Origin: Clostridia bacterium
Lineage (GTDB): Bacteria > Bacillota > Clostridia > Christensenellales > Borkfalkiaceae
Direction: 5' to 3'
Length of the DNA stretch: 64,000 nt
Assembly (NCBI GenBank): GCA_017522945.1
Contig: JAFWXT010000022.1
Location: forward strand, 1-64,000
Shown here in pieces: positions 9,049-49,549 of this stretch. Below the pieces are notes generated by a model. The model made no database searches, had not been told where the DNA came from, and was given only the letters and a program-made list of their open reading frames with translations. Each line of letters begins with the position of its first letter. The first letter of the stretch is position 1. The translations under genes and the position numbers were made by a program.

Positions 9049-10224
9049 ATGACTGATAAAAAAAGAGAGACCTTTGGTAACTTTATATATATGCTTTTGA
9101 GCATGCTTGTTTTTGTGGTTATGATAATTGCTGGTTTTAAATACTCTCAATTTTTATATACCGAAAGTTCAAACTCTACTTTAAATCTAATCGTTTCATT
9201 CGCTATGATAATCGCTTGGCTAATCATTTACTGGCTTCAAATTATTATACACGAAAGCGGTCATTTAATATTTGGGCTTTTAAGCGGATATTCATTTTCT
9301 TCTTTTAGAATTGGCTCGCTATTTATTTCAAAAAGCAACGGCAAGATAAAGTTATCTAAATTAAAACTTGCAGGAACGGGCGGGCAATGTTTATTAGCCC
9401 CACCTACCGAAAGCGATAAACCAACAAACCCTATTTTGTACCTACTTGGCGGTGGCATATTAAATGCAATAACCGCTCTTATAACTCTACCTTTCATATT
9501 TATAGTAAATAACGTTCACGTTAAGTATTCGTTGTTTATGTTTTTCTTTTTCGGCATAATAACCGCTTTATTAAATCTAATTCCTGCAAATTTAAAATAT
9601 ATTTGCAACGACGGTTATAACGTTTTAATTCTATCTAAACGCAATGAAAAAAGCGTTGAAGCCTTAAATTTTCAACTTAACGTTTCAAACGCGCTTACAA
9701 AAGGGATTAGCATAAAAGATATGCCAGACGAGTGGTTTATCTTTCCCGAAAAACAAGATTTAACCGACTTTTTAATTACTACAAAAGCCTATGTTTGCAT
9801 AACGAGAGAGATTGAAAAAGGTAACTTTGAATGGGTTTACGGTGTTATAGACGGACTTTTATCTTTAAACGTCCCATTACTTGGCATATATCAAGTATTG
9901 CTTAAAGGCGAACTTTTATATCTTGGTATGATACTCAACAAACTTACGCTTGAGCAAGCAAATGACATAAACAATTCACTATCCAAAGACTATAAGGCTT
10001 TAAAAAACAATATTTCGATGCTTAGAGTTAATTATAGCGCCGAGCTTTTACTTAATAAAAATCAAACCGAAGCAAGCAAAATTTTGGCTGTATTTAACAA
10101 ATTAGCAAAAGTTCACCCTTACGTAAGTGAAAGCATAACGGAAAATAAACTTATAACTCTTGCTAACGATATTTATGCAGGTAGCGACATATTAAACGCC
10201 ACTTCCCGATTTGTAAATGAATAA
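9049..10224 (+). CDS. M50-like (site-2-protease-like) membrane metalloprotease
   Basis: 391 residues. Membrane segments lie at about 14-32, 44-62 and 125-175. The motif IIHESGHLIFGLLSG (His68, Glu69, His72) is an HExxH zinc site within a membrane segment, as in M50 peptidases. A second motif, LIPANLKYICNDGYNVL, resembles the M50 NPxPxxxLDG loop that supplies the third metal ligand (Asp). The C-terminal 200 residues are soluble and helical with no recognised domain. Family members cleave within membranes, for example to release regulators. Substrate and partner are unknown. GGAGG lies 9 nt upstream. It probably belongs to the same transcript as hemW. Confidence 0.72.
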   Translation: MTDKKRETFGNFIYMLLSMLVFVVMIIAGFKYSQFLYTESSNSTLNLIVSFAMIIAWLIIYWLQIIIHESGHLIFGLLSGYSFSSFRIGSLFISKSNGKIKLSKLKLAGTGGQCLLAPPTESDKPTNPILYLLGGGILNAITALITLPFIFIVNNVHVKYSLFMFFFFGIITALLNLIPANLKYICNDGYNVLILSKRNEKSVEALNFQLNVSNALTKGISIKDMPDEWFIFPEKQDLTDFLITTKAYVCITREIEKGNFEWVYGVIDGLLSLNVPLLGIYQVLLKGELLYLGMILNKLTLEQANDINNSLSKDYKALKNNISMLRVNYSAELLLNKNQTEASKILAVFNKLAKVHPYVSESITENKLITLANDIYAGSDILNATSRFVNE

Positions 10225-12715: not shown

Positions 12716-12747
12716 TAACCCCGTTGCTTTTTTGCAACGGGGTTTTT
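12716..12747 (+). terminator. Rho-independent terminator of the phosphofructokinase pair
   Basis: AACCCCGTTGC pairs perfectly with GCAACGGGGTT around TTTTTT, followed by TTTACTT. Confidence 0.9.
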
Positions 12748-12829: not shown

Positions 12830-14896
12830 TTATTTCTTTTTACCGAACAAACCAAAAAATCCACAACCTTCTTTTTTACCCTTTTTATCGTGAACCTTTA
12901 AAGTTCCTGCCGACCATTCAGAACGCCATTTTTTACTGTTTTTACCGTTTGCAAGCGTAACTACTAACTTACTACAACCACTAAACAAACCGTTTCCTGC
13001 ATTTAAAATACTTGCTGGTAAGGTTACTTCAGTTAACTTTTTACATCCGCTAAAAGCGTAACCGCCTAAATCTGTTAACCCTTCATCGATAGTTAGTTTT
13101 TCAAGTGAAGTACAATTAGCAAACGCTCTTTCGCCTATTTCTAAAGTGCTTTCAGGAATATAGATTGCACATAAACTCTTACAATTAGAAAAGGCGTTTT
13201 TACCTATTTTTTGTAAAGAATTACCCAAAATAACGCTCATTAAATTCTCGCAAGAATCAAATGCATATTCTTCAATAACCTTTACGCCTAAAAGCTTAAC
13301 GTTTTTAAGTGATAAACAGTTTAAAAATGCGTTACTTTCAATAATTTCAACAGAAGATGGTATTTCAATGCTTTCAAGCGTACAATTAGAAAAAGCACCA
13401 CTTGATATCGCTGTAACGCTATCGGGCAAATAAACCGACTTCAATTTACTTGCTACCTTGCTAAAAGCAAATGCATTTTGCCCTATTACGCTCACTTCAT
13501 CAGGAACTTTAACGTCAGTTTTATCGCCAATATATTGAACTAAAACACTATTTTCAATTTTAAAATCCTTTAAAATTTCTTCTTTGTTTTTTTGTCTTGC
13601 GTTTTGCGAAATAATTTTAACGGTAGCGCCAAAAGCCTTTAATTTAGATGAAATTCGCACGCTTTCTTCACGGCTAACACCGCTTTTAATAATTCCTTTA
13701 TTTAAAACTACTGCGCGCGCCTCATCATAGTTAACACCAGAAACCGCGCTTATAATTTGAGTTGGTCCGTAAGCATCACGAGTGTAACTATCAAAATACA
13801 CGTCGAAAAATTCAATAGGAGCAACTTCGTGGGCTTGTTTTTGTTCGCCAGCTTTTAGGTCTTTCATACCAACTTCAAAAGCCATACCGCCACCAAGTAT
13901 ATACCTGTTAACGCGCGAAAGGATTGATTCTAAGCTATAACAGTAATCAAGCCCTGCAAAAACTTCAGCAACCGTTTGATTAGCAACGCCCGTTTTTTCA
14001 TCATCTAAACGCCATTGAATTCTTGGTTTTTTATACTTTACGTCTATTTTTTCATAAGCAACGTTAGGAAAATTAGTTGAAAGTTTTTCTAAATCACTGT
14101 TTTTTAAATAAGGAAGCTCGTACTTTATAGCATCACACTTTAAATTTCGTGAGTTTTTGGTTGAAACAAATAGAAAAACCTTACAGTTATCAATAGCAGT
14201 TTGAATAGACTGGCGATAATTATTCGCCGCTCCTGCACCGTGTTGTAAATTACGCATAGAAATAAAACACGAAAGTCCTTGGTTTTCAAGATAATCAACA
14301 ACTTCCTTTGCTTTATCTATATCTTCATTGGCGTAACAAACAAAAACGTCGCGAGTTATTGATAATTCATAAACGCCGTCTTCAACCTTTTCCGCCATCT
14401 TTGCAAATTTTGTTGTAAAATGCTCGAATTTTTGTAAATCTTTATCCTTAAATGCCCTTTCAATTAAATTATTAACTGCAAGCAAATATTCTGGCTTTAA
14501 CGACTTAATTAAAAACTCGATTACCATTTCAATAGAATCGCTATTTTCGCAAGCGTCGATACTATCGATAAAAGCAACGGCAGCTTCGCTATTATCGCTA
14601 CATATTACGTCGTAAAAGTTAGCAAGAAAATCCTCGGGATAAATATTTTTAATACTTAAACATATTGCAAGAATTTTTTCACTATTTACAAGCTCGGCAG
14701 TAGCCTCTTGCCATAAATGACGGCGAAGAGAATTTAACTGTTCTTGTTTTTGCAAATCCAAAAAAGAATCTAAAATCTGTTTTTGTCTTTTCGCGCTATC
14801 TTCGGCAAAAACCGAGCCACAGTTTTCACACTTACAATGCCCATCGTCGATAGGATTTAATATACCGCCACAGTTTTTACAAAATAATTCAGTCAT
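12830..14896 (-). CDS. Zinc-ribbon / TIR / L7-L12-like / leucine-rich-repeat protein
   Basis: 688 residues in five parts. Residues 6-26: zinc ribbon (CxxC at 6/9, CxC-xx-C at 21-26). 35-175: helical linker. 181-290: TIR domain (DVFVCYANEDIDKAKEVVDY, then LSCFISMRNLQ); Glu260 in DAIKYELPYL aligns with the catalytic Glu of NAD-cleaving TIRs. About 366-430: a module like the C-terminal domain of ribosomal protein L7/L12 (GPTQIISAVSGVNYDEARAV, then GVSREESVRISSKLKAFGA). 455-670: BspA-type LRR_5 repeats (AFSNC, AFLNC, AFDSC, AFANC, AFSGC). The tail 671-688 is basic (KKGKKEGCGFFGLFGKKK). No signal peptide, so cytoplasmic. It has its own promoter and terminator. Function unknown; a ligand-sensing NADase or signalling scaffold is inference. 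Confidence 0.85.
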   Translation of the reverse strand: MTELFCKNCGGILNPIDDGHCKCENCGSVFAEDSAKRQKQILDSFLDLQKQEQLNSLRRHLWQEATAELVNSEKILAICLSIKNIYPEDFLANFYDVICSDNSEAAVAFIDSIDACENSDSIEMVIEFLIKSLKPEYLLAVNNLIERAFKDKDLQKFEHFTTKFAKMAEKVEDGVYELSITRDVFVCYANEDIDKAKEVVDYLENQGLSCFISMRNLQHGAGAANNYRQSIQTAIDNCKVFLFVSTKNSRNLKCDAIKYELPYLKNSDLEKLSTNFPNVAYEKIDVKYKKPRIQWRLDDEKTGVANQTVAEVFAGLDYCYSLESILSRVNRYILGGGMAFEVGMKDLKAGEQKQAHEVAPIEFFDVYFDSYTRDAYGPTQIISAVSGVNYDEARAVVLNKGIIKSGVSREESVRISSKLKAFGATVKIISQNARQKNKEEILKDFKIENSVLVQYIGDKTDVKVPDEVSVIGQNAFAFSKVASKLKSVYLPDSVTAISSGAFSNCTLESIEIPSSVEIIESNAFLNCLSLKNVKLLGVKVIEEYAFDSCENLMSVILGNSLQKIGKNAFSNCKSLCAIYIPESTLEIGERAFANCTSLEKLTIDEGLTDLGGYAFSGCKKLTEVTLPASILNAGNGLFSGCSKLVVTLANGKNSKKWRSEWSAGTLKVHDKKGKKEGCGFFGLFGKKK

Positions 14897-14926: not shown

Positions 14927-14955
14927 ATTATAGCATTTTATTTATATTTTTTCAA
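14927..14955 (-). promoter_or_regulatory. Sigma-A type promoter for the zinc-ribbon/TIR/LRR gene
   Basis: On the minus strand: TTGAAA (14955-14950), 17-nt spacer, TATAAT (14932-14927). The start should lie about 25 nt before the ATG, so the gene is transcribed alone and appears constitutively readable. Confidence 0.65.
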
Positions 14956-15031: not shown

Positions 15032-15060
15032 AATACGGTAACTAAAGTTAGCTACCGTAT
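15032..15060 (-). terminator. Rho-independent terminator of gapA
   Basis: ATACGGTAACTAA pairs with TTAGCTACCGTAT with one mismatch. On the minus strand it is followed by TTTTTTTATC. Confidence 0.85.
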
Positions 15061-36047: not shown

Positions 36048-36719
36048 TTATTGTTTTACTGGTTTCCCGTTTTCATCTAAACGATAGTATGCGTTAGACG
36101 CCGAAATTTCAAACTCGGCACTTTCACTTATGCCGTTAAATGCGTTTTCACCTATTTCTCTAACATTGTGACCGATATAAACGCTGTTTAGCTTTGTGCA
36201 ATATTCAAACGCTGAAACACCGATAGTTTGAACTTTTTCGGGAAGATCTAATCTTCTAATAGCAAGACTTACGAAAGCGCGTTCACCGATAGTTACTAAT
36301 GAAGAGGGAAGATTCAATTCTTCTAAAGCGGTGCATCCGTAAAAAGCACCAACGCCAATTTCAACAAGCCCCTTATTAAAATATATTCTTGAAAGATTTT
36401 TGCAATCGTTAAAAGCGTTCGCACCCACAACCTTTACGTTTGAAGGTAAACAAAGCTCGATAATCGTTGCCGACATAAAACCTTTTGCATCGATTTGAGA
36501 AATACTATTACCGTTATACTCTTCTGGAATGTATAATTTTTCAGGAAGATTAGTAACATCTTTAGCCTTAACGCTATAACTGCCGTCGGCAAGTTCAGTA
36601 AAGGTAAAGTATTCGTTTGGCGTAGCTTCGTAAGTTTTAGGCTCAATACAGCCCACAACACCTAAAGCTGTTAACGAAAGAATAAAAAGTGAAAGAATTA
36701 ACGCTTTCAATGACTTCAT
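36048..36719 (-). CDS. BspA-like leucine-rich-repeat lipoprotein
   Basis: 223 residues. The signal sequence ends ALGVVGC with a fair lipobox, so Cys24 is probably lipidated and the protein held outside the membrane. After a 35-residue link come LRR_5 repeats (NSISQIDAKGF, then AFNDC, AFYGC, AFVS, AFEYC, AFNGI units spaced by about 23 residues). BspA-type repeats are often surface-exposed and adhesion-related. It shares the repeat type with the two cytoplasmic TIR proteins in this window but has no TIR domain. Ended by a clear terminator. Confidence 0.85.
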   Translation of the reverse strand: MKSLKALILSLFILSLTALGVVGCIEPKTYEATPNEYFTFTELADGSYSVKAKDVTNLPEKLYIPEEYNGNSISQIDAKGFMSATIIELCLPSNVKVVGANAFNDCKNLSRIYFNKGLVEIGVGAFYGCTALEELNLPSSLVTIGERAFVSLAIRRLDLPEKVQTIGVSAFEYCTKLNSVYIGHNVREIGENAFNGISESAEFEISASNAYYRLDENGKPVKQ

Positions 36720-47284: not shown

Positions 47285-49549
47285 TCACACTTTTCCATCA
47301 ACGCAAATAACCGTTACGACTTTTTCGATTAAAGCGTTTTCATCTTCGCATATTTCGGGTAAAAATTTACCCGTTTGTTTAATTTGTTTCCACTCCTGTT
47401 TAGTTCCGCCAAAGTAGATTATGGGCAACTCAAACTCATCTTCATCAAAATAGTTTTCGCCAACTTCGTCAAAGTCTTCGCCTGATTCGTATCCCGCAAC
47501 GCGACTGCTATACAAATCGTTTATAACGTTTTTATTTATAACCTTAAGCGAGTTATTAGCTAAAATTATTTTTTCAACGTAAGGACAATCGTTAGCAATA
47601 CTGTTAAGTTCAATAATTTCCCTATCTATAGCAATAGTAGTTAAATCATGGCACTCACTTATAATCGAGCTTTCAACCCTTTCAATAGGAGTATCACCAG
47701 CTTCAATATAAAGTTGTTCAACAGAACTACTTGTTATCATATTGTTAGAAAAACTACTCAAACTGCCCGGCAAATAAAATGAAGTTATGCTTGTATTATC
47801 AAACGCAGTATAGCCTATACTTTTAATTTTTGGATTTTCACCAAAATCTACTTTACTAATGCTATCACATAACATAAATGCAGAACTTTCAATCTCTTCA
47901 AGAGTTTTAGGAAAGCTTAATCTTTCAATAGCACTGCACCCCATAAACGCACCAAATCCTATTTTTTGCAATCTTTTACCAAAGCTTATTTCTTGCAAAT
48001 TTTCACAACTGCCAAAAGCATCTAATTCAATAATTTCAAGATTATCTGGCAGTTCAACCTTAACTAAAGAGATGCATCTTGAAAATGCGGATTTTGCAAT
48101 ACTCTTTAACTTGCACCCCTTTTCAAACACAATTTCCCGTAAAGAAGAACAGTTTTCAAATGCTCGTTCACAAATTTTAGTAACGTTAGCCGAAAAAACA
48201 ACCCTTTTCAAGTTTTTGCAACCCTGAAAAGCATTTTCGCCTATTATGATTTCTTGCTCGTTATTGTCACAACTTTCAAAAACAACACTTTCAAGGTTAT
48301 CACAATTAGCAAATGCAAATTTATCAATTCTCGTTATATTTTTGGTTATAAGCGCGCTAACACAGTCATTTTGACAAGCAAACGCCTTTTCTAAAATAGC
48401 CGTTGCTCCATCGCAAGTTTTAATGTTTGCGTTTTGGTCGCAAAAACCGTAAACTATCTCTTTTTGGATTGTTGAATATAAACAATTACTATCAAAGGCA
48501 TATCTCTTTGTAAACTTATAATCAATGGCTTTACCTTCCATAACCATTCTTTCATAGTCGTTAATGCTATGTCTAAAATGCTTAAAGGTAATATTTCTTA
48601 CCCCGCTACCGCTAAACGCGCCCTTATCAATCCTTGTGGTGGAAAGTTTTAGTTCAACACTTTTAAGCTTTTTGCAGTTATAAAAGGCGTACTTACCTAT
48701 TTCTTCAGGTAGTGTACCAACTTCATTTAAACTATCACATTCGGCAAAAGCATAACCGCCAACCAAAAACGTTTCAGATAAATCTACACTTTGTAAACTT
48801 TCGCAACCAAAAAACGCGCGGTCACCAAGCGAAACGTTGCCAAAATTAGCCCTTTCAAGTTGCTTGCAGTTTGCAAAAGCACAGTCGCCAATATGTGAAA
48901 TTCGCTCATTCGTACCGTCAGCGTATTCAGGAATAGTAACGTTAACCAAATCAATATTTCTAACCGCAACCACAGTATCATTTTCAAACTTCAAGCTGTT
49001 TTCACGTTTTAAAAGTCTAATTTTATCCGCTTTAAATTCAGCAGGTGCGCCGTAATCAATAAATAAAACTTTATCGTTAAAGGTAGAGTTTATTATCTCG
49101 ATTTGTTCATTTTCAATCGCACAAGTTTTATTGATTTGTACAATCATTTCGCTTGCAGGAATACTCTTACCGTTTAGCGGAAGATTTATAGATAAATAGT
49201 CCTTACCCTTGTTTTTAACAAAGTTTATTTCTTTAATAACCGAGTGAGATTGCAAAGAATTTTCGCTCAAATAAAATATAACGCCAACACATGAATACTT
49301 GATAATCGCCTCATAGGCAGACTTTTCCCAATCTTTACCCGCAGGAAGCCCACGATCGTACCAAATGTTTACACCCTGTTCTTGAAGGCGCAAAATATCG
49401 GCATAAACCTCTTTATAATCGGCGTGCGAATAGCTAACAAAGTAGTATTCGTCACTTTGAGTATAAGGCATAACGTCAACGGGAAGTTCCCCAAGTGATG
49501 CCGATTTGTTTATAATATCAAGTTTTTGCTGTGTAGTATAATTAGCCAT
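47285..49549 (-). CDS. TIR-domain protein with long BspA-like leucine-rich-repeat region
   Basis: 754 residues, no signal peptide. Residues 35-125 form a TIR domain: YYFVSYSHADYKEVYADILR, then VNIWYDRGLPAGKDW, YLSENSLQSHSVIKEINFV. Glu107 in SVIKEINF aligns with the catalytic Glu of NAD-cleaving TIRs. About residues 195-690 are LRR_5 repeats (AFANC, AFFGC, AFAEC, AFYNC, AFQGC, AFENC, AFSRC, AFGSC, AFMGC units), longer than in the 12830 protein. The TIR is the first domain, the reverse of animal Toll-like receptors. AGGAA precedes the ATG. It lies between rdgB and a phosphodiesterase; no Thoeris or CBASS partner is nearby. Function unknown. Confidence 0.88.
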   Translation of the reverse strand: MANYTTQQKLDIINKSASLGELPVDVMPYTQSDEYYFVSYSHADYKEVYADILRLQEQGVNIWYDRGLPAGKDWEKSAYEAIIKYSCVGVIFYLSENSLQSHSVIKEINFVKNKGKDYLSINLPLNGKSIPASEMIVQINKTCAIENEQIEIINSTFNDKVLFIDYGAPAEFKADKIRLLKRENSLKFENDTVVAVRNIDLVNVTIPEYADGTNERISHIGDCAFANCKQLERANFGNVSLGDRAFFGCESLQSVDLSETFLVGGYAFAECDSLNEVGTLPEEIGKYAFYNCKKLKSVELKLSTTRIDKGAFSGSGVRNITFKHFRHSINDYERMVMEGKAIDYKFTKRYAFDSNCLYSTIQKEIVYGFCDQNANIKTCDGATAILEKAFACQNDCVSALITKNITRIDKFAFANCDNLESVVFESCDNNEQEIIIGENAFQGCKNLKRVVFSANVTKICERAFENCSSLREIVFEKGCKLKSIAKSAFSRCISLVKVELPDNLEIIELDAFGSCENLQEISFGKRLQKIGFGAFMGCSAIERLSFPKTLEEIESSAFMLCDSISKVDFGENPKIKSIGYTAFDNTSITSFYLPGSLSSFSNNMITSSSVEQLYIEAGDTPIERVESSIISECHDLTTIAIDREIIELNSIANDCPYVEKIILANNSLKVINKNVINDLYSSRVAGYESGEDFDEVGENYFDEDEFELPIIYFGGTKQEWKQIKQTGKFLPEICEDENALIEKVVTVICVDGKV

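Follow-up and report, generated by a model that had tools for sequence, protein, structure and literature searches.

A predicted zinc-ribbon/TIR protein with an embedded L7/L12-like module and LRR_5 repeats belongs to a putative multicopy family with varying C-terminal modules

Bacterial NAD-cleaving TIR domains include ThsB of the Thoeris system, where ThsA is found beside it. A conserved glutamate is critical to the NADase activity of other TIRs, while many TIRs serve as assembly units and not as enzymes (PMC7075850). TIR domains also occur together with leucine-rich repeats and an additional domain in plant TIR-NB-LRR receptors and in NLRs with integrated domains, and leucine-rich repeats of the LRR_5 type characterise the BspA-type proteins. 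The ribosomal stalk protein bL12 (PF00542) is a short protein with an N-terminal dimer domain, a hinge and a C-terminal domain (CTD), and the alpha4/alpha5 face of the CTD binds EF-Tu and EF-G. When its K65 is exchanged for anything but R or H, ribosome activity is severely impaired (PMC6110070). Here we analysed a 64,000-nucleotide stretch from a Clostridia bacterium (the window), which encodes a predicted protein uniting an NADase-type TIR core with a ribosomal-stalk-related domain, in a genome with five copies of the TIR core that differ in their C-termini.

The protein is encoded by a single ORF with an ATG start and, in the translation as read, no internal stop (Table 1). An earlier note on this DNA had listed a zinc ribbon, a TIR domain, an L7/L12-like module and LRR_5 repeats, and this list is borne out by Pfam, by conserved cysteines and by the fold tests described below. 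The TFIIB-type zinc ribbon is weak by profile HMM (Pfam E-value of 0.061), and its cysteines C6, C9, C23 and C26 are conserved in 26-27 of 29 family sequences, whereas the LRR_5 repeats lie above the curated Pfam threshold. Beyond the earlier list, the stretch between the zinc ribbon and the TIR domain is conserved as well and has no Pfam name. The zinc ribbon begins directly at the N-terminus, where no signal peptide was seen by eye, and the protein is probably cytoplasmic; the suggested character of a cytoplasmic sensor or effector is upheld as probable.

Table 1. Positions in the window of the TIR/L12/LRR_5 gene, its predicted domains and the flanking transcription signals.
Feature	Positions	Strand	Basis
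Zinc ribbon/helical/TIR/L12-CTD-like/LRR_5 protein, 688 aa	12830..14896	-	ORF and Pfam
C4 zinc ribbon, residues 6-27, C-x2-C-x13-C-x2-C	14816..14881	-	Pfam Zn_Ribbon_TF (weak); conserved cysteines
Region without Pfam name, residues ~35-175, borders approximate	14372..14794	-	Conservation across the family; helical nature predicted from sequence
TIR domain, residues ~180-290	14027..14359	-	Pfam TIR_2 (residues 184-251, E 1.6e-9); hhalign 99.3% against generic TIRs
Codon of Glu260, position of the catalytic glutamate in NAD-cleaving TIRs	14117..14119	-	E in 29/29; aligned to generic TIR glutamate
L7/L12 CTD-like module, residues ~362-430	13607..13813	-	Pfam, profile, shuffles, model, Foldseek
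LRR_5 (BspA-type) repeats, residues ~450-650	12947..13549	-	Pfam 2.6e-55; solved LRR proteins up to 3.2e-48
Basic C-terminal tail, ending KKEGCGFFGLFGKKK	12833..12946	-	Translation read
Promoter-like TTGAAA-17-TATAAT, TG before second hexamer, 11/12, ~30 nt before ATG	14927..14955	-	Signal scan
Terminator-like stem-loop after the upstream GAPDH gene	15033..15060	-	Signal scan
Terminator-like stem-loop between the TIR gene and the convergent phosphofructokinase gene	12717..12744	.	Signal scan

The TIR domain is a constant element of the family, as TIR_2 was matched in all 27 relatives scanned. Glu260 is a glutamate in 29 of 29 family sequences and, in a profile-profile alignment (hhalign, 99.3% probability), falls on the conserved glutamate of generic TIRs from the same taxonomic family. 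The glutamate of the NAD-cleaving type is thus kept, as previously claimed. A single-sequence structure model of the TIR region reached a pLDDT of 36, and PADLOC returned only weak ThsB-like TIR matches for the protein.

To the C-terminal side of the TIR domain, residues 381-428 match the Pfam family Ribosomal_L12 with an E-value of 0.0032 and 18.2 bits, which is below the cut-off of 25.9 and covers only positions 18-66 of PF00542. Against a profile of the ribosomal L12 CTD from 11 relatives, the module scores 37.4 bits, while the best of 20,000 shuffles of the module reached 16.1, so we rejected a chance likeness to L12. Across 248 genomes of the order, the above-threshold hits of the module, itself apart, are all found in frames of 123-169 aa; this is the size of ribosomal L12, and those matched frames that were read in sequence were ribosomal L12. 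A single-sequence AlphaFold model of the module (mean pLDDT of 66.5) has the order strand-helix-helix-strand-helix-strand. Searched against the PDB with Foldseek, this model placed L7/L12 chains first to eighth (best E-value of 4.6e-4; in the ribosome structures 3j9y and 6gb2, chain length was the basis for this assignment). Next came ClpS, whose fold is akin to that of the L12 CTD. The comparison of the middle module with the L7/L12 fold that the earlier note had set as a test returned L7/L12 first, and the profile score, shuffles and model topology agree in assigning residues ~362-430 to an L7/L12-CTD-like domain. The module is homologous to the L7/L12 CTD, with a resemblance beyond chance. 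Its best match in both structure and sequence is bL12, with which it shares the order of the fold; unlike bL12, it lacks the dimer domain and hinge and is embedded in 688 aa. We rejected a recent duplication of the genome's own ribosomal L12 gene (G000:C48), as identity is 25%, and also a fusion by assembly error, given the single open frame and the absence of a near-identical ribosomal L12 available for joining.

The gene is flanked by a GAPDH gene on one side and by convergent phosphofructokinase genes on the other. Neighbours named by NCBIfam are LepA, HemW, two phosphofructokinases, GAPDH, KDPG aldolase, thioredoxin reductase, 1-phosphofructokinase and EF-G, while the ORF at 9049-10224 has no NCBIfam name; none of the neighbours is a defence-island gene. 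Promoter-like sequences in total are at chance level, of which the one before the ATG is the best and is well placed. Since terminator-like sites are also present on both sides, the gene is probably transcribed alone amid housekeeping genes. An operon with the adjoining glycolysis genes was rejected because of the intervening terminator-like sites.

The N-terminal module of zinc ribbon, helical region and TIR domain occurs five times in the genome, the other four copies being 50-63% identical to that of the window over ~340 aa. The C-termini differ: L12-like module and LRR_5 in the window, LRR_5 in C70 and C94, DUF6273 repeats in C87 and TM2 in C81. Where the window protein has its L12-like module, the paralogues have a coiled-coil-like linker. 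In other genomes, the same N-terminal module is followed by LRR_5, Sel1 and LRR_5, a UvrD helicase, a second TIR or MORN repeats. One further zinc-ribbon/TIR copy, accompanied by a Vps4-like AAA ATPase, is part of a TerD operon (G035, L103:3341-9617), where the frame with the TIR domain ends and a TerD-like domain follows downstream in another frame. The N-terminal 440 residues were matched at an E-value of 1e-20 or better in 16 of 301 genomes of the taxonomic family, in some of them as multiple copies, and a profile of the N-terminal module gave no match at that threshold in 244 other genomes across the class. Searches of viral contigs, made with both the family alignment and the L12 module, and of phage records, made with residues 1-440, found no relatives. 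The best 15 of 18 matches in plasmid records all begin no earlier than query residue 393, and those that are annotated are leucine-rich repeat proteins; the sole match of a scan of the genome contigs was to LRR_5. Our literature search returned no paper on a protein combining a zinc ribbon, TIR and LRR_5. Judging by these sequence comparisons, this is a lineage-restricted, multicopy TIR family in which one shared N-terminal module is joined to varying C-terminal modules.

LRR_5 repeats are also found in other proteins of the window and its genome. A second TIR and LRR_5 protein of 754 aa (47285-49549, minus strand; TIR_2 E-value of 6.5e-9, LRR_5 of 2e-79) lacks the zinc ribbon and L12-like module, and a 223-aa LRR_5-type ORF (36048-36719, minus strand) has a lipoprotein-like N-terminus. 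In a two-copy LRR_5 group elsewhere in the genome (L006 and L009), both members share a long N-terminal region, and a hydrophobic segment is present.

What the L12-like module may do depends on the face through which ribosomal L12 contacts GTPases. Over positions 65-80 (E. coli numbering), corresponding to alpha4/alpha5 of the CTD, the ribosomal L12s of 11 relatives all have K65, K70, R73 and L80, and I or V at position 69. At positions 65, 69, 70, 73 and 80, the module has A, T, Q, S and Y. The alignment behind this comparison is one in which the module is 22-34% identical to the ribosomal L12s of relatives; there are no gaps over the helix and G77...E82-A83-[KR]84, so the pre-helix loop does not affect where K70, R73 and L80 fall. 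On this alignment the module, in contrast to bL12, has lost its GTPase-binding face while the fold is kept. The earlier note had suggested contact with translation factors, in which the module would recruit EF-Tu, EF-G or another translational GTPase and couple translation status to TIR activity. The genuine L7/L12-CTD fold and the retention of E82, A83 and a basic residue at position 84 speak for such a sensor. However, the replacement of residues that relatives keep, together with the severe effect of K65 substitutions on the ribosome (PMC6110070), makes the recruitment of translation factors unlikely; another partner is possible. The module is absent from the other four copies in the genome and from every other relative examined, and it is therefore no part of the family's core mechanism. 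Indeed, among 398 genomes of the taxonomic family, an L12-like module embedded in such a protein was found only in that of the window, and a conserved core role was rejected on this account. We thus regard a translation sensor as very unlikely: from the earlier interpretation, the domains, the L7/L12 fold, the TIR glutamate and the probable sensor or effector character stand, and the translation-factor contact does not.

Since the fold is kept and the GTPase-binding face is lost, the module is most likely a repurposed protein-interaction or spacer domain and not a dock for translation factors. With moderate confidence, we suggest that the protein belongs to a lineage-restricted family of probably cytoplasmic TIR effectors or sensors with swappable C-terminal modules, of which the L12-like module is one that has been repurposed. 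The LRR_5 repeats would bind a protein ligand, binding would promote self-association of the TIR domain, and the TIR domain would cleave NAD+ or make an NAD-derived signal; in the window copy, the domain derived from the L7/L12 CTD would stand in for the coiled-coil-like linker of the paralogues. Against this reading, the gene has no defence-island neighbours, and the ThsB-like matches from PADLOC are weak. The coiled-coil-like linker, found in the paralogues at the same place, is also consistent with a scaffold in which the TIR is a non-catalytic self-associating adaptor and the module an inert replacement for the coiled coil, and many TIRs do act in assembly (PMC7075850). Yet Glu260 is invariant in 29 otherwise divergent sequences, which would be unexpected for a dead enzyme, so that a pure scaffold seems improbable. 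Still less probable is that the module mimics the stalk as an integrated decoy, trapping a stalk-binding protein of a phage or competitor and firing the TIR domain, as in some plant NLR immune receptors. A decoy would fit the five paralogues with variable C-terminal modules on one TIR core, the derivation of the module from a ribosomal target with loss of its native GTPase face, and its presence in one of 398 genomes. It would, however, be expected to conserve some of the stalk surface, whereas little of it is conserved in the module, and no attacker of L12 is known for this host. Extended to the whole family, the zinc-ribbon/TIR paralogues would be intracellular immune receptors with swappable, partly target-derived sensors, and the L12 decoy would sense attackers of translation and cause NAD depletion; we give this little credence.

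Returning to the favoured reading of swappable modules, the L12 CTD itself appears in a range of contexts. Proteins from other families of the class combine an L12-CTD-like domain with LRR_5 and MORN repeats, with DUF6273 and SHOCT, with a zinc ribbon, with DUF6709 and with EF-Tu domain 2. The L12 CTD is thus, as far as domain content can tell, a mobile domain in these bacteria, to which the window adds the combination with TIR. In three proteins from other genomes of the class (L069, L070 and L071), EF-Tu domain 2 is joined to an L12 CTD in which most residues of the GTPase face are retained; the N-terminus is lipoprotein-like in L069 and L070, and L071 has a hydrophobic N-terminal segment. 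An 847-aa protein (L072, G604:C23) has an N-terminal L12 CTD, MORN repeats and C-terminal LRR_5 but no TIR, and in the DUF6709 proteins L067 and L068 the L12 CTD is at the end. The non-ribosomal proteins L067-L075 share with the window protein an L12-CTD-like domain in a multidomain setting, whereas those examined lack a TIR and several keep GTPase-face residues that the window module has lost. No paper on an L12 CTD outside the ribosome was found in the literature search. Together with these proteins, the window protein presents the L12 CTD as a mobile domain outside the ribosome. The main interest of the family, however, lies in its swappable C-terminal modules and less in translation sensing: should these modules prove to be sensors, natural receptor swaps would be at hand in the family for studying the activation of bacterial TIRs.

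Among described systems, the window protein resembles bacterial NAD-cleaving TIRs such as ThsB in its TIR_2 domain, in the glutamate at the catalytic position and in the weak ThsB profile matches. It differs in carrying zinc ribbon, helical, L12 and LRR modules besides the TIR, and in having no ThsA-like partner among the named neighbours. With the BspA-type LRR_5 proteins, which are abundant in the same genome, it shares the repeat type, but it carries an N-terminal zinc ribbon and TIR and is probably cytoplasmic. No NB-ARC or NACHT domain was matched by Pfam up to an E-value of 10, and the place between TIR and LRR is taken by the L12-like module. The combination of TIR, LRR and an additional domain is nevertheless that of plant TIR-NB-LRR receptors and NLRs with integrated domains; as the LRR_5 repeats of the window protein are of the BspA type, this relation is one of analogy.
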